Source of the DNA: Nakamurella sp. | GTDB lineage: Bacteria; Actinomycetota; Actinomycetes; Mycobacteriales; Nakamurellaceae | DNA: 49,748 bases | NCBI GenBank assembly: GCA_017882715.1 | Contig: JADGOY010000008.1 | Span: 1 to 49,748, forward strand | Reading direction: 5' to 3' | Shown: in pieces, positions 18,808 to 25,945 of the stretch | Layout of the letters: the number at the start of each line of letters is the position of its first letter | Position numbering within the stretch: the first letter of the stretch is position 1 | Notes under the pieces: model-generated | Databases searched by the model: none | What the model was told of the DNA's origin: nothing | Seen by the model: the letters and a program-made list of their open reading frames with translations, nothing else | Position numbers and translations under genes: made by a program

Positions 18808-20289
18808 TCAGCTGCGGCCTCGCAGCGGCACCACGATCCGGACCGCGGTGCCGAGCTCGCCCTCCCGATCGCACATCTCGATGGATCCGAGCAGCTCGGA
18901 GTCCACCAGGGTCCGCACGATCTGCAGGCCGAGCCCGGACGCCTTTTCGACGCTGAACCCCTCGGGCAGTCCCTGGCCGTCGTCGGACACCATCACGTCG
19001 AGCTCCTTCGCGGAGCGATCGACCGCGATGGTGACCTGACCCTCCCCCGTCTCCGGGCCGAACGCATGTTGCAGGGCGTTCTGCACGATCTCGGCGAGCA
19101 CCATCACCAGCGGCGTGGCCAGCTCGGCGCCGAGGATGCCGAAGGTGCCCACCCGCCGAACCCTGGCAGACGTTTCGGCGGCCGCGACATCGGAGATCAT
19201 CGGCACCAACCGGTCGACGATCTGGTCGAGATCCACCCGGTCGTCCGGTGACGTGGACAACGTCTCGTGCACCAGCGCGATCGACGCGACGCGTCGCATC
19301 GACTCGCTGAGGGCCTGCCGGACGGACGGATCGGCCGACCGCCTCCCCTGCATGCGCAGCAGCGCCGCGACGGTCTGCAGATTGTTCTTCACCCGGTGGT
19401 GGATCTCGCGGATGGTGGCGTCCTTGGACAGCAACGCCCGATCCCGCCTGCGGACCTCGGTGACGTCCCGGACCAACACCAACGCGCCTGACGGCCGGCC
19501 GTGCGGCCGCAGCGGGAGCGCCCGGAAGAGCACCGTCGCAGCCCGTGCCTCCACCTCCATGCGCAGGCCCGGCCGCCCTTCGACCGCACCGTTGATGCGA
19601 GCGGCCAATTCCGCGGCGTCGAACGGGTCGTCGATGAGCGGTCGGGTCAGCGCCGCCAGATCCTGGCCGAGGACCTCGCCGTTGTAGGTCAGCCGGTGGT
19701 ACGCCGAAAGGGCGTTCGGGCTGACGTAGACAACCTTGCCATCTGCATCGAGTCTGAGCAGTCCGTCACCGGCGCGCGGCCCGGTGTGCATCTCACCGGG
19801 ATGCTCGCTCGGCGGAAAGGTGCCGTCCGCGACCATCTGGAACAGGTCGCATGCCGCATCGACGTACGCCGTTTCCAGCAGGCTGGCCTCACGGCCGACC
19901 ATGCTGCTGGTGTCCCGCTCGATCAGCGCGATGATGCCGTCCAGATGCCGGACCGGGATCACCTCCCGCCGGATCCACGCTCTCGGTGCGTCCAGCGGCG
20001 GTGGTTCGGACATCACCCGCTCCTCTTCCCAGGCATGACGAAGCAGCGGGAAGTCGGACGGCTCGATGGTGCCGGACACCCGGTCGTCGACGAAGGCGGT
20101 CACGCCGGTCGTGGGCCTGGCCTGCGCCGCGCAGATCATCGCCCCGGATCCGGTCGACACCCAGAGCAGCAGGTCGGAGAAGGACAGGTCGGCCAGCAGC
20201 TGCCATTCGGAGACCAGCGCCTGCAGACGGGCCACCGCCGACCCGGACAGGTCGCTGTGCTCGGCGAGCAGGTCGGACAGGGTCGACAT
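18808..20289 (-). CDS. pdtaS: PdtaS two-component sensor histidine kinase
   Basis: This soluble 493-residue kinase has an N-terminal GAF-like domain (about 1-150), a PAS domain (about 170-285), a HisKA_2 dimerisation domain with EIHHRVKNNLQTVAALLRMQ (phosphohistidine at 297/298), and an HATPase domain (EIVQNALQHAF, DDGQGLPEGF, GLGLQIVRTL). In mycobacteria PdtaS phosphorylates the RNA-binding antiterminator PdtaR, linking redox or copper/NO signals to translation. The pdtaR gene is not in this window. The gene order whiB1-pdtaS-biotinyl protein is that of Rv3219-Rv3221c. The kinase should be functional. Confidence 0.95.
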   Translation of the reverse strand: MSTLSDLLAEHSDLSGSAVARLQALVSEWQLLADLSFSDLLLWVSTGSGAMICAAQARPTTGVTAFVDDRVSGTIEPSDFPLLRHAWEEERVMSEPPPLDAPRAWIRREVIPVRHLDGIIALIERDTSSMVGREASLLETAYVDAACDLFQMVADGTFPPSEHPGEMHTGPRAGDGLLRLDADGKVVYVSPNALSAYHRLTYNGEVLGQDLAALTRPLIDDPFDAAELAARINGAVEGRPGLRMEVEARAATVLFRALPLRPHGRPSGALVLVRDVTEVRRRDRALLSKDATIREIHHRVKNNLQTVAALLRMQGRRSADPSVRQALSESMRRVASIALVHETLSTSPDDRVDLDQIVDRLVPMISDVAAAETSARVRRVGTFGILGAELATPLVMVLAEIVQNALQHAFGPETGEGQVTIAVDRSAKELDVMVSDDGQGLPEGFSVEKASGLGLQIVRTLVDSELLGSIEMCDREGELGTAVRIVVPLRGRS

Positions 20290-20432
20290 CTGGCTGGTTC
20301 CCCGATCTGGGAGTGGCGGACCGGGGCGAACGGTCTCGGCCCGTCACGGCCCCGGAGAGGCGCCGGTCGGCGAGACGAGACGCAGGTGTTGGTCTGTCCG
20401 GTCAGCGAGGGTGCTGGACTACGGTTCGATCG

Positions 20433-20648
20433 TCAGGAGATCTCGGCGATCAGGTCACCTTCCTGCACGACGGCGCCTTCCTCGACGGCGAGCTTGGAGA
20501 CCCTGCCGTCCACCTCGACGATCACCGGGATCTCCATCTTCATCGACTCCAGGATCACCAGCGTGTCGCCGTCTTCGACGGTGTCACCCTCGGCCACCAG
20601 CACCTTCCAGACGTTGGCCACCATCTCCGCCCGTACTTCTTCGGCCAT
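20433..20648 (-). CDS. Biotinyl/lipoyl-attachment protein (TB7.3-like)
   Basis: This 71-residue protein consists only of a biotinyl carrier domain. The attachment motif ESMKMEIP carries the target Lys37. Short Gly turns (AEGDTVEDGD, EEGAVVQEGD) mark the two hairpins of the hammerhead fold. It corresponds to Rv3221c/TB7.3, a biotinylated protein without a fused carboxylase. The carboxylase partner, if any, is unknown. It lies 143 bp upstream of pdtaS on the same strand and may share a transcript. Confidence 0.93.
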   Translation of the reverse strand: MAEEVRAEMVANVWKVLVAEGDTVEDGDTLVILESMKMEIPVIVEVDGRVSKLAVEEGAVVQEGDLIAEIS

Positions 20649-21189: not shown

Positions 21190-21570
21190 TCAGTCGGCCA
21201 ATGCCGCCGAGCCGCCACGCCCGGTCTCCGACTCCGCGGGGCGCTCGGCGGTGACCGTCACGATGCTGGTGCTCACCTGGATCGATCCGGCATCGTCGTC
21301 GCGCAGCGCCGCCGAGATGGTTGCCAGCCGCGCGACCAGGCGTACCCGAAGCCGTTCCGGGGCTCGATCGCCACCACACTTGCTGTGTAGCAGGTGCTTG
21401 AGCTTCTGATCGATGCCCGCCTCGACCAGGCACGGCGAGCAATCGTCGAGATGTCGTTGCACGGCCGCCCGGTTCTCCGGATCCATCTCGTCGTCGAGGA
21501 ACAGCCAGACGTCTCGCAAGACTTCGTCGCAGCGACCGCCGCTGGACTTCTCCGGATCAGCGCCCGCCAT
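21190..21570 (-). CDS. rsrA: RsrA/RshA-type zinc anti-sigma factor for SigH
   Basis: This 126-residue ZAS-family redox-sensing anti-sigma factor has Cys14 plus the H-x3-C-x2-C motif at His40, Cys44 and Cys47 (HLDDCSPC), the zinc/disulfide switch of RsrA. In relatives, disulfide stress releases SigH. The start at 21570 overlaps the 3' end of sigH by 14 bp, so synthesis is coupled. The protein is longer than most (about 85-105 residues). The extra C-terminal segment is Thr/Ser/Val-rich and without known function. Confidence 0.92.
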
Positions 21571-22552
21571 TGCCACGACCCACCTTCCGCTCATCCCCGA
21601 CGGACAGTTGCGTCGACTCCCGCGCGCCGACCGGCGCGGGTTCCGTTTCCTCGCTCGGGGCGGCAGTATCCGCCGCAGCGGCCGTTGCGTCAGTGACCGG
21701 GGTCCTAGCCGGACGCAGGAATCCCCGTTCGGTGGCGTAGCCGGTGAGCAGTTCCCGCAGCTGACGCCGCCCACGGTGCAGCCGGGACATCACGGTGCCC
21801 AGCGGCGTTCCCATGATCTCGGCGATCTCCTTGTAGGCAAAACCCTCGACGTCGGCCAGATACACGGCCAGCCGGAAGTCCTCGGGCAACTCCTGCAGCG
21901 CCTCTTTGACGTCCGAGTCCGGCAACCGGTCCAGCGCCTCCATCTCGGCCGATCGCAATCCGGTCGAGGTGTGCGACTCCGCGGCCGCGAGTTGCCAGTC
22001 CGTGATCTCATCGGTCGCCGTCACCACCGGCTGCCGCTGCTTCTTCCGGTAGCCGTTGATGTAGGTGTTGGTGAGGATGCGGTACAGCCAGGCACGCAGG
22101 TTGGTGCCCTGGGTGAAGCTGCCGAAGGCGGCGAAAGCCTTGAGGAACGTCTCCTGGACCAGGTCCTCGGCGTCCGCAGGGTTGCGGGTCATCCGCAGGG
22201 CGGCCGCGTAGAGCTGATCGAGCAACGGCATGGCCTGATCGGTGAACCGATGCGCCAGGTCCTCCTCGGAGGCCGTTGTTGCCATCCGCGTCACCCCCCT
22301 CGCGCTCCCGGTCGCCAGCTGGGCGCCGCGATCAGCCGCATCAGCGAACACAGCGGTCGCACTGTGCCGAGCGCGCCGACCTGCCGGGCGCCGCTGTGAG
22401 GGTACCTGGCGGGCTTGGGCAGGCGGTCGGCGACGACCCAGCGTGTTCGGTGTCGTTTCGGAGTGAGTTCCCGGCCGCATCAGCCCGGGTGAGTGGCGCA
22501 CCGTCAGCGGGGACGGCCCTGCCGGCAGCGTCCCGGCCTGGAGCAATGGCAT
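21557..22552 (-). CDS. sigH: SigH/SigR-type ECF sigma factor, long form with N-terminal extension
   Basis: The core protein (242 residues) starts at the ATG at 22285 ([10 protein letters not shown]) behind GAGGGGGG. It has sigma region 2 ([20 protein letters not shown]) and region 4 ([38 protein letters not shown]), diagnostic of the RsrA-controlled SigH/SigR group. The same frame stays open upstream to an ATG at 22552, which has its own AGGGAGA eight nt before it and an SigH-type promoter about 20 nt further up. The long form is 331 residues with an 89-residue Pro/Arg/Ala-rich extension. In Streptomyces coelicolor a comparable longer, unstable SigR' is made from the stress-induced promoter, so both forms are probably real here. 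The tail after region 4 is Thr/Glu-rich. Confidence 0.9.
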
Positions 22553-22580
22553 CTGTCAGGTCTCCCTTCCTGTTCGTGGC

Positions 22581-22606
22581 AACGCCGGTCGAAAGGGAGG
22601 TATTCC
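22581..22606 (-). promoter_or_regulatory. SigH-dependent promoter of sigH
   Basis: On the minus strand GGAAT (22606-22602) is followed by exactly 18 nt and GTT (22583-22581). This is the SigR/SigH consensus and gives positive autoregulation. Predicted transcription begins near 22573, only about 20 nt before the long-form ATG. Confidence 0.75.
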
Positions 22607-22633: not shown

Positions 22634-23080
22634 TCAGTCCTTGTCCGGCAATGGTTCGAGGACGACGACCGGGATCTCGCGGTCCGTTCTGGTCTGGTAC
22701 GTCGCGTAGTCCGGCCAGACGTCGACAGCCCGTGCCCACCACTCCTCGCGCTCCCGGCCGGTCGCGGTGTGCGCGTGGTAGCGCCGCTTGACCGCCTTGT
22801 CCTGCAGCCCGACCTCGGGATCGGCCTGCAGGTTCAGGTACCAGGCGGGATGTCGAGGCGCGCCGCCCATCGACGCGATGACGGCGTAGCGCTGGCCGTC
22901 GGTCACCCGCATCAGCGGCATCTTGCGGATGGCGCCGCTGTGCCGCCCGCGGGTGGACAGGATCACCACGGGCACTCCGCGCAGGTCCCGGCGCTCGGCC
23001 CCGTCGGTGGCCTCGTAGACGCGGACCTGTTCGTTGGCGCGCTCACTGGCGCCAGGCAGGTAGGACGGATCGGCGGTCAT
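22634..23080 (-). CDS. Deazaflavin (F420)-dependent nitroreductase-family protein
   Basis: This 148-residue protein has the split-barrel fold of the Ddn family. It has VVILSTRGRHSGAIRKMPLM (the phosphate/F420-binding loop), YAVIASMGGAPRHPAWYLNL and REEWWARAVDVWPDYATYQ near the end. Family members use reduced F420 to reduce nitro compounds, quinones or enones. The ATG at 23080 follows GGGAG. It lies 82 bp before the sigH long-form start on the same strand, so it could be read into sigH, but a separate SigH promoter intervenes. Confidence 0.9.
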   Translation of the reverse strand: MTADPSYLPGASERANEQVRVYEATDGAERRDLRGVPVVILSTRGRHSGAIRKMPLMRVTDGQRYAVIASMGGAPRHPAWYLNLQADPEVGLQDKAVKRRYHAHTATGREREEWWARAVDVWPDYATYQTRTDREIPVVVLEPLPDKD

Positions 23081-23185
23081 CAAGGTCTCCCAAGGCGGAC
23101 GGGCGGACGGGACTGCTCCAGGTCGAGTCTGCGCGGGCCGGGCAAATTTCCAATGACCGGGGCCCGCCCAGGCGCACCATCCGGA

Positions 23186-23248
23186 TGATCAAAGCCGCTG
23201 GCCATTCAACGTCGTCACGCAACCTGAAAGGGCCAGAACCTTTGATCA
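23186..23248. other. 63-nt near-palindromic structured element
   Basis: TGATCAAAG (23186-23194) pairs perfectly with CTTTGATCA (23240-23248). After a 3x3 internal loop, CTGGCC (23198-23203) pairs with GGCCAG (23231-23236), leaving a 27-nt loop. It lies between the P450 stop and the F420 oxidoreductase start. It has no T tract, so it may be a processing signal, an attenuator, a small RNA fold or a mobile repeat. Confidence 0.6.
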
Positions 23249-23297
23249 GCAACGGGTTTCGTGGCCGTGCACCGGTCGGCGGCCAACCGCTCCCCTG

Positions 23298-24479
23298 TCA
23301 CCAAGCCACCGGCAGGGTCTGCACGCTGTAGACGATCGAGGAGTTGCGGAAGGTCAGGTCCGTCGTCGGGACGGCGAGCCGCAACGTCGGGAACCGCCTG
23401 GCCAGCGCGGGGAACGCCGCGCGCAGCTCCATCCGGGCCAGCTCGGCGCCGACGCAGCGGTGGATCCCGTACCCGAAGGCCAGGTGGGAGCCGGCCGGCC
23501 TGGTCGGGTCGAACGCGTCCATCACCGGATGGCCCTCCGCCGCCAGGATGGCGTCCCGGTCCGCCGCGGACAGCGACACCAACACCATCTGACCGGCCGG
23601 GATCTGCACCCCGCCGATCTCGATGTCCGTGCGGGCGAACCGCGGAAAAGCCACCTGGACCACCGTCAGGTACCGCAACAATTCCTCGACCGCCCGGTGC
23701 ACGGCGTCAGCGTCGGCGCTGGCCAGCTGGGCGAAGTAGTCCGGACTCTGCAGCAGCGCGAGGACCCCCAGCGACAGCGTGCTGGCGGTGGTCTCGTGGC
23801 CGCCCGTGAGGATGCCGTCGGCGATCCCCGCCAGCTCCCGATCGCTGAGCTCGTCGCCGTGCTCCCGGATCAGCATGCCCAACAGGCCCTCCCCGGGCCG
23901 GGCACGCTCCCGCTGCACGAGGGTCTGCAGATAGTCCAGCGAGGTGCCGATGGTGTCCAGCGGGGACGCCTCGCCGGCCAGGTCGAATCGCGCCGTGGAC
24001 AGGGCCTGAAAGTCGTCCCGGTCCGAGTACGGCACGCCCAGCAGCTCGCAGATCACCAGCGACGGGATCGGCAGCGCGAACAGGTGCACCAGATCGGCGG
24101 GCGCCCCGGCCGATTCGATTGCGTCGAGTTGCTCGGTGACGATCGCGTCGATCCGCGACTGCAGGCGCAGCAGCCGGCGCATGGTGAACTCCGGCGTCAA
24201 CAGCCGGCGCAGCTTGGTGTGGTAGGGCGGGTCCGTCATGCCCAGGCCGCCGGGGTCCTGCTCGTCAGCCTCCCCCAGGTTGCCGAAGGCGTTGCTGAAC
24301 GTCGTGGCATCGCCCAGCACTTCCTTCGCCGCGTCGTAGCCGGTGACCAGCCACGCCTTGATCCCGAAGGGCAGTTCGAGCACGCTGACCGGCTCGTTGT
24401 CGCGCCGGGCGCCGAGCTCGGGGATCGGGTCGAGCACGTCACGGGTGAACAGCAGGGGCATGAACAGCGCATCGGTCAT
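23298..24479 (-). CDS. Cytochrome P450
   Basis: This soluble 393-residue class I bacterial P450 mono-oxygenase has the I-helix GGHETT (226-231), K-helix E266-x-x-R269, and the heme-binding loop FGYGIHRCVGAEL with Cys342 as thiolate ligand. MTDPPYHTKLRRLLTPEFT is the usual C-helix region. AAGGA precedes the ATG at 24479. It stands alone, with no ferredoxin or reductase beside it, so redox partners must come from elsewhere. The Streptomyces-type subfamily features suggest hydroxylation of a secondary metabolite, steroid or terpenoid; the substrate is unknown. Confidence 0.93.
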   Translation of the reverse strand: MTDALFMPLLFTRDVLDPIPELGARRDNEPVSVLELPFGIKAWLVTGYDAAKEVLGDATTFSNAFGNLGEADEQDPGGLGMTDPPYHTKLRRLLTPEFTMRRLLRLQSRIDAIVTEQLDAIESAGAPADLVHLFALPIPSLVICELLGVPYSDRDDFQALSTARFDLAGEASPLDTIGTSLDYLQTLVQRERARPGEGLLGMLIREHGDELSDRELAGIADGILTGGHETTASTLSLGVLALLQSPDYFAQLASADADAVHRAVEELLRYLTVVQVAFPRFARTDIEIGGVQIPAGQMVLVSLSAADRDAILAAEGHPVMDAFDPTRPAGSHLAFGYGIHRCVGAELARMELRAAFPALARRFPTLRLAVPTTDLTFRNSSIVYSVQTLPVAW

Positions 24480-24736
24480 CGGTGTCCTTCTGCAGGCTGG
24501 TCTGGACGCTCTCCATCGTCGCCTGTCCGGGTCGCGAACGGGCCGACCGCTCATGGCGATCCGTGCCGGGATCTGGTTGCACTCGAATCAGCAACAGGCT
24601 GCGTCAGGCGGCGGCGCTGTCGGTGGATCGGGGTACTGTCGCTCAACGAACCCGCCCCGGTCATCCGGACGCTTTCGGTTTCCAGCCATCGCCACTCCAC
24701 GACCGCCAATGAAAATCGGCCCGGAGGGAGACGAGC

Positions 24737-25945
24737 GTGATCAACTTCGACAACGTGTCGAAGACCTTCGGCGAGGGCGACCACCGGACGGCGGCCGTGG
24801 ATGATCTGACCATCGAGATCCCCACCGGCAAGATCACCGTGTTCGTCGGGCCGTCCGGCTGCGGCAAGACCACCTCGCTGCGGATGATCAACCGTATGAT
24901 CGAGCCGACGTCGGGCACGGTGCTGATCGACGGGGTCGACACCCGCAGCATCGATGCGCCGACGCTGCGTCGCGGGATCGGGTATGTCATCCAGAACGCG
25001 GGCCTGTTCCCGCACCGCACAGTGCTGGACAACATCGCCACCGTTCCGGTCCTTCAGGGACAGAGCCGGAGGTCGGCCAGGGCGACCGCAGCCGAGCTCC
25101 TGGAGCGGGTCGGGCTGCCGGAGTCGATGGGTCAGCGATACCCGGCGCAGCTGTCCGGTGGGCAGCAGCAGCGGGTCGGCGTCGCCAGGGCGCTGGCCGC
25201 GGACCCGCCGGTGATGCTGATGGACGAGCCGTTCTCAGCGGTGGACCCGGTGGTCAGGGCGCAGTTGCAGGACGAGTTCACCCGGCTGCAGGCGGAACTG
25301 GGCAAGACCATTGTGTTCGTCACGCACGACATCGACGAGGCGGTCAAGCTCGGCGACGGTATCGCGGTCCTCGCCATCGGCGGCCGGCTCGCCCAGTACG
25401 CCACGCCGGCGGAGGTGCTCAGTCACCCCGCCGACGATTTCGTGGCTGATTTCGTCGGTCGCGACCGTGGGTACCGGGCGCTGTCGTTCACCGCTGCGGG
25501 CCAGCTTCCGGTGCACGAGGAGCCGACGCTGCGGCTGGGCTCCTCACCTGCGCGGGGGCCGGCGCCGTCGAGTGCTCCGGTCGGCGAGCCGTACTGGGTG
25601 CTCGTGGTGGACGACGCGCGGCAGCCGCGAGGCTGGGTGGACGCCCGCCGGCTGACCAGCGGGCGCGGGGTCGAGCTCGGTGATCTCGTGCTCGGTGGGT
25701 CGCTGGCCGACCCACACGCGTCGCTACGGACCGCTTTGGACGCCGCTTTGTCCTCACCGTCCGGCCGCGGCGTCGCGATCGATGCCGACGGCCGGGTGAT
25801 CGGCACGGTCGCCGCCCGTGACGTGCTGCGCGCCATCGAGGCGGCCAGGGTCAACGCTCCCCACTCGCCCGGGCAAGGTACCTCCCCGGGCGCCGGAGCG
25901 CGGGAAGGCGAAGCTGATCCAGCGGCCGCGGCGGTCCCGTCGTGA
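24737..25945 (+). CDS. Osmolyte ABC transporter ATP-binding subunit (OpuCA/ProV type)
   Basis: This 402-residue ATPase of a glycine betaine/choline/proline-type importer has Walker A GPSGCGKTT (38-46), Q-loop IQNAGLFPH, signature LSGGQQQRVGVARAL, Walker B PVMLMDEPFSAVDP and switch THD. The C-terminal 130 residues look like a weak CBS pair, the ionic-strength sensor in OpuA-type ATPases; the last part (GRVIGTVAARDVLRAIEA) is clearly CBS-like. The start is GTG behind GGAGGG. Its end overlaps the first permease (GTGA). First gene of a four-gene operon. Confidence 0.92.
   Translation: MINFDNVSKTFGEGDHRTAAVDDLTIEIPTGKITVFVGPSGCGKTTSLRMINRMIEPTSGTVLIDGVDTRSIDAPTLRRGIGYVIQNAGLFPHRTVLDNIATVPVLQGQSRRSARATAAELLERVGLPESMGQRYPAQLSGGQQQRVGVARALAADPPVMLMDEPFSAVDPVVRAQLQDEFTRLQAELGKTIVFVTHDIDEAVKLGDGIAVLAIGGRLAQYATPAEVLSHPADDFVADFVGRDRGYRALSFTAAGQLPVHEEPTLRLGSSPARGPAPSSAPVGEPYWVLVVDDARQPRGWVDARRLTSGRGVELGDLVLGGSLADPHASLRTALDAALSSPSGRGVAIDADGRVIGTVAARDVLRAIEAARVNAPHSPGQGTSPGAGAREGEADPAAAAVPS

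Follow-up and report, generated by a model that had tools for sequence, protein, structure and literature searches.

A predicted long isoform of SigH, read through an embedded promoter-like element, in Nakamurella and other Actinomycetes

The sigH locus of Nakamurella and its upstream frame

We analyzed a 49,748-nucleotide stretch of DNA (hereafter the window) from a 4.65 Mb draft genome of Nakamurella sp., in which a sigH gene and an adjoining anti-sigma factor gene lie on the minus strand (Table 1). The sigH product scored 337.4 bits against the SigH_actino model (TIGR02947; cut-off 251.55) over residues 93-280 of the long form described below, which places it in the SigR/SigH group, and its nearest solved chain is 5zx2_F, an M. 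tuberculosis-type SigH (E 1e-86). The adjoining gene scored 90.9 bits against antisig_RsrA (TIGR03988; cut-off 62.5) and belongs with the RsrA-type zinc anti-sigma factors; we refer to it as rshA. It has its own GGAAGG at 21588-21583 on the minus strand, which resembles the dedicated ribosome binding site, GAAAGG or GGAAGG, of Streptomyces rsrA (PMC5472188). Neighboring genes, at window positions 18808-20648 and 22634-25945, encode a PdtaS-type histidine kinase, a small biotin carrier, an F420H2-dependent quinone reductase, a cytochrome P450 and a ProV-like ABC ATPase. The downstream gene order resembles that of the mycobacterial sigH region.

Table 1. Features of the sigH locus, with positions in the window
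Feature	Position	Strand	Basis
p2, SigH/SigR-type autoregulatory promoter GGAAT-N18-GTT (GGAAT 22606-22602, GTT 22583-22581)	22581..22606	-	sequence
AGGGAGA, Shine-Dalgarno (SD)-like, 8 nt upstream of the long start	22561..22567	-	sequence; function predicted
Codons of the 89-residue N-terminal extension, from ATG 22552-22550	22286..22552	-	open frame; internal element phase-locked in relatives
Candidate p1, GTACCCTC, with -10-like TACCCT at 22404-22399 in codons GTA CCC TCA	22398..22405	-	codon phase of TANNNT in relatives; activity predicted
AGGGGGG, SD-like, 8 nt upstream of the short start	22294..22300	-	sequence; function predicted
sigH, short form from ATG 22285	21557..22285	-	TIGR02947 match; nearest solved chain 5zx2_F
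rshA/rsrA-type anti-sigma factor gene, starting 14 nt before the end of sigH (14-nt overlap)	21190..21570	-	TIGR03988 match; sequence

An initial annotation of this DNA had described a GGAAT-N18-GTT promoter, an AGGGAGA, an ATG at 22552 and 89 open codons upstream of sigH, and we recovered all of them at the positions given in Table 1. The frame between the two ATG codons contains no in-frame stop, and an in-frame TGA at 22558-22556 closes it just 5' of the long start. Translated through to the end of sigH, it gives a protein of 331 residues without an internal stop. The extension has a net charge of +11 and a high content of Ala, Arg and Pro. It is left uncovered by the family models in the 25 of 87 family matches listed, all of which start at a residue number of at least 89.

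On the evidence of the window alone, a real extension is indistinguishable from an accidental open frame. A single match to the strict promoter pattern falls in the window, where 0.48 would be expected, and 38 of 100 shuffles contain one or more. The case at this level is weak because 89 codons stay open in about 36% of trials with first-order Markov sequence built from the extension, and because the extension carries no codon-position signal: its GC content is flat across the three codon positions (0.76/0.71/0.74), compared to 0.67/0.50/0.85 in the core. Both of these observations, together with the SD-like sequence that the short start has of its own, would suit a reading in which only the short protein is made: p2 would produce an untranslated leader, translation would begin at ATG 22285, and high GC content would keep the upstream frame open by accident. 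We consider this reading improbable, and the evidence that stands against it comes from relatives.

An embedded element in the frame of sigH in relatives

We assembled several sets of loci for comparison. The genus set comprises 17 genomes. A search of the order matched 120 of 121 genomes, of which 100 were examined and, with 2 extra genomes of the genus, gave 102 loci; two of these (L079 and L083) are cut by contig ends and were left out of the phase counts. A search of the class matched 91 of 98 genomes, and the 60 examined all come from outside the window's order. A third set, consisting of the best 80 loci among the matches listed, shares species with the order and class sets and so is not independent of them. 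Removing 4 identical sequences from the pooled 240 left 236 distinct sigH upstream sequences. At loci without p2, we scanned 300 nt upstream instead. The phase counts below are counts of sequences rather than of independent events and are unweighted by tree; weighting by family (44 families) was confined to the base profile and the per-family majority count. One record (L275), titled as a Bifidobacterium breve MAG, encodes a SigH with 80% identity to the alignment query. Bifidobacteria are not known to carry this system, and the label may reflect an error of binning or naming.

A p2-type promoter is present in all 17 genus genomes (in one as GGAAC), 179 to 527 nt upstream of the aligned core start, and in every one of them it is followed by an in-frame start with no later stop. 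The extensions themselves vary greatly in sequence and length within the genus. Across the pooled loci, p2 was found in 221 of 236. The order set has it in 90 of 102 loci, the 12 without it including L079 and L083, and frame 0 stays open between the estimated p2 start and the core in 71 of these 90, compared to 24 and 4 for the other two frames. Frame 0 is likewise open in 51 of the 56 p2 loci among the 60 of the class set (other frames, 20 and 7) and in 58 of the 79 p2 loci among the best 80 of the matches listed (other frames, 20 and 4). This excess of frame 0 is difficult to reconcile with production of the short protein alone, and once relatives are included the arrangement of promoter and open frame lies well beyond chance. 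Frame-breaking changes in close relatives had been named in advance as grounds for dismissing the long isoform; our check for such changes did not refute it. The Mycobacteroides chelonae locus (L280) lacks a p2-like match and has only an out-of-frame TANNNT upstream of sigH; the layout may have been lost there, or the motif may have changed.

The position of start codons points the same way. An ATG or GTG lies exactly 9 nt past the GTT of p2 in 72 of the 221 p2 loci, and 71 of these 72 starts are in the sigH frame (48/48 in the order and class sets, and 23/24 in the best 80 among the matches listed), a regularity that also stands against an untranslated leader. Judging by the spacing, these lineages probably translate the long form from a leaderless mRNA. 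In the window, the p2 transcript would carry an SD-like sequence in a leader of roughly 20 nt.

The initial annotation had predicted that the short form would need a second, housekeeping promoter inside the extension. We found a conserved, in-frame -10-like element there, which by comparison with relatives is a candidate for such a promoter. Between p2 and the sigma domain of the 236 distinct loci, the hexamer TANNNT occurs 233, 10 and 17 times in the three phases, at 64 different distances. It is in frame in 227 loci, only out of frame in 6 and absent in 3. In the core coding sequences, the corresponding counts are 2/27/28, the phase of the sigH frame being the rarest there. The bias recurs in the separate sets, with 157/7/8 over 160 loci of the order and class sets and 82/3/9 in the best 80 loci among the matches listed, and phase 0 holds the majority in 42 of the 44 families. 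No other XYNNNZ pattern that occurs 40 times or more is as phase-biased as TANNNT. GTANNNT recurs within the genus (16 of 17 loci, at 15 different spacings from the core), always read as GTA NNN T.. in the frame of sigH, and GTACCCT accounts for 10 of the 17 genus element hits; one locus (L011) is without an internal element.

The DNA word is conserved more than the residues that it encodes, which is what a -10 element would lead one to expect. The first codon of the element is GTA in 155 cases, CTA in 50, ATA in 20 and TTA in 2, and GTA is rare in the cores of these genes (18 of 1472 Val codons). The third codon begins with T but encodes Ser (175), Leu (26), Trp (16), Phe (5), Cys (3) or Tyr (2). 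We considered conservation of a V-x-S peptide in place of DNA and disfavored it, because the residues vary while the TA and the T are retained, and retained in rare codons. We also considered whether a leaderless short form made at p1 could mimic the phase lock and rejected this, as start codons show no common distance after the element except in family f16. Members of that family (e.g. L052, L056 and L059) have a GTG 8 or 11 nt past the element in 11 of 12 loci, and their short form may itself be leaderless.

From these comparisons, the predicted housekeeping promoter, p1, probably lies at 22405-22398. In the window, 113 nt separate this element from the short ATG; in most relatives of the genus, the first in-frame start is closer. 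No conserved -35 was found: no base exceeds 0.56 at any position from 45 to 1 nt upstream of the element. The lack of a conserved -35, the predicted status of p1 activity and the frequency of V-x-S at the element would all be in keeping with a gene that makes only the long protein, with ATG 22552 as the true start and the element something other than a promoter. A constraint on the peptide, however, would not keep TA-NNN-T in rare codons while the first residue varies among Val, Leu and Ile and the third among six amino acids. Additionally, p1 of Streptomyces makes the short form (PMC5472188), and a Streptomyces-type locus in our class set (L179), which encodes the published N-terminus TGTDAGTEH, has CTATCCTC 49 nt upstream of its AGGAGGTG ribosome binding site. 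We therefore regard a long-only gene as very unlikely. By the class scan, 4 of the 5 Streptomyces-type loci have the element in frame, as CTATCCTC or CTATTCTC; the fifth (L193) also has the element, which the scan missed owing to a nearer p2-like match.

The phase of the element bears directly on translation of the extension. Because the codon phase is kept, ribosomes would have to pass through the element, and because the element precedes any transcript that it starts, those ribosomes could come only with transcripts from further upstream. The constraint on frame begins between p2 and the element, as the phase of p2 relative to the sigH frame is random in the genus (6/5/6) but 16 of 17 loci keep the element in phase. 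A constraint that sets in there fits translation beginning at a codon like ATG 22552 and is unexpected for an untranslated leader. The persistence of the element's codon phase over 64 distances in 236 distinct loci stands against a gene that makes the short protein alone. By comparison, then, the extension behaves as a translated frame in which a conserved p1-like -10 is embedded, and loci throughout the class very probably encode a long isoform. Relatives thus support the claim in the initial annotation that the stress promoter is positioned for production of a long isoform. Any hint that the layout is special to this genome is not, since it is general in the actinobacteria examined and isoforms of this kind have been published.

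A two-isoform model and known systems

We consider it likely that sigH encodes two isoforms, a short form made constitutively from p1 and a short-lived long form made under stress from p2, much as sigR does in Streptomyces. In this model, RNA polymerase with the housekeeping sigma factor would use p1, whose -10 lies within codons of the extension, in unstressed cells and give the short SigH from ATG 22285, which RshA would keep inactive. Thiol stress would oxidize RshA, and the freed SigH would fire p2. The resulting mRNA would be translated from ATG 22552 into a long form, SigH', with the basic 89-residue tail. By analogy with SigR', this tail would make SigH' a short-lived Clp substrate, so that the burst limits itself. 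The activity of both promoters, thiol induction and the rapid turnover are predictions carried over from the Streptomyces system, and we regard its logic as the best explanation because the anatomy of the locus matches that of S. coelicolor.

The isoform pair is already known from Streptomyces, in which the unstable SigR' has been described (PMC5472188, PMC4921905). In S. coelicolor, SigR' is the product of p2 and has 55 (PMC4921905) or 58 (PMC5472188) extra residues; it is short-lived in a Clp-dependent manner, while the p1 product is stable (PMC5472188, PMC4921905). The sigRp1-sigRp2 system of these papers has an orthologous sigma factor with an RsrA-type partner, a SigR-type p2, an in-frame upstream start, a tail missing from the p1 product and p1 inside that tail; the Nakamurella locus has the same layout, with a candidate p1. 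The comparison with SigR' drawn in the initial annotation is apt, including the greater length and the Ala, Arg and Pro content that it gave for the Nakamurella tail, at 89 residues instead of 55 or 58. We recognized no similarity between the two tails by eye. The short form also starts differently, at ATG in Nakamurella and at GTC in S. coelicolor. No WblC/WhiB7-type AT-rich stretch was seen by eye in the 30 nt upstream of 22405.

Mycobacterial SigH is an orthologue and provides the nearest solved structure. Kim et al. reportedly found an unstable longer SigH in M. smegmatis in 2009, and are said to have suggested that the isoform pair extends to other actinomycetes. Family f7, which by peptide and contig similarity includes the mycobacterial lineage, is less regular in frame and element, with an open frame from p2 in 3 of 7 p2 loci and the best element out of frame in 3 of 9. 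Two promoters have been reported for M. tuberculosis sigH (PMC4921905). The SigH/RshA pair of Corynebacterium glutamicum is likewise orthologous to that of Nakamurella, and SigA-type promoters there have a TANANT -10 and a weak -35 (PMC3489674). It differs in that housekeeping promoters serve sigH, while a SigH-controlled promoter serves rshA alone, according to the same source.

Extending the model beyond the genus, we propose with moderate confidence that sigR/sigH is dual-coded across the Actinomycetes, with the -10 of p1 held in rare codons of the tail in one phase, indels between p1 and the sigma domain coming in threes, and about a third of p2 loci producing a leaderless long form. In the open-licence literature that we searched, we found no description of a frame-locked embedded promoter or of class-wide leaderless long forms. 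If the proposal is true, the isoform pair would be an ancestral part of the thiol-stress circuit and not a Streptomyces speciality. Where the annotated start of sigR/sigH is the short one, the gene may conceal another protein made under stress. The comparison turns what was a guess about a single genome into a testable rule for actinobacteria. The codon phase of an embedded -10 also offers a cheap sequence test for promoters that overlap coding sequences, usable on other autoregulated genes with internal promoters.

Across the genome, GGGAAT-N18/19-GTTG sites number 13, compared to 4 for the reversed pattern; these 13 do not include p2 of the window, in which GGAAT follows a C. At two loci, L293 (G000:C268) and L297 (G000:C349), GGGAAT-N18-GTTG precedes open reading frames that by eye resemble a thioredoxin reductase and a PAC2-type protein, and we list both as candidate SigH targets in this genome. 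Thioredoxin reductase is a classic SigR target (PMC5472188).

Selection on the tail and its composition

We compared the part of the extension upstream of p1 in 29 close, overlapping pairs of sequences aligned as proteins. Pooled pN/pS over these pairs is 0.58 in frame, compared to 1.10 and 1.53 in the wrong frames, and stops number 0 in frame versus 31 and 13. The core has a pN/pS of 0.04. In 5 of the 29 pairs, including L008/L009 of the window's genus, pN exceeds pS. A second genus pair, L019/L020, has a pN of 0.10 and a pS of 0.15, and over these two pairs amino acid selection on the tail within the genus was not demonstrated. Charge differs along the extension: distal peptides have a mean net charge of +2.2, with positive values in 96 of 150 loci, while between p1 and the core the mean is -3.5, with negative values in 120 of 150.

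Extensions from several lineages (L058, L067, L162, L170, L174, L196, L198 and family f15) contain a Trp-centered motif, P-[ED]-W-P or W-P-x-W-P. The P-[ED]-W-P-like pattern, designed post hoc, occurs in 25 of 148 non-redundant peptides, compared to a mean of 1.4 and a maximum of 6 in shuffles, and nine P[ED]WP instances use eight DNA spellings. A protease or partner protein may recognize this motif. We set aside an N-terminal [DE]RP motif, also designed post hoc, as weak (6/148; shuffles mean 1.2, maximum 5). The window's extension contains neither a P-[ED]-W-P-like nor a [DE]RP motif.

The fast evolution of the tail relative to the core and the missing Trp motif in the window leave room for a variant in which the two isoforms exist but the long one is not destabilized by its tail, which instead alters binding to RshA or RNA polymerase, for example, or is a tolerated by-product of nesting p1 within the transcript. 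We hold this variant to be unlikely. The tail of S. coelicolor SigR' destabilizes the protein, which still transcribes the regulon (PMC4921905, PMC5472188), and the anatomy here is the same; the Nakamurella genome also has two ClpP genes. A loose search for a p2-like site before clpP gave no match in the two stretches scanned. The model of a stable short form and a short-lived long form remains the one that we prefer.

The region downstream of the likely short start is also diverse in the genus. Long, variable and often acidic linkers lie between this start and the sigma domain in Nakamurella aerolata (L018 and L245) and in two further loci (L012 and L010). Because these linkers vary, the N-terminus of the short isoform would also differ considerably among some relatives in the genus.
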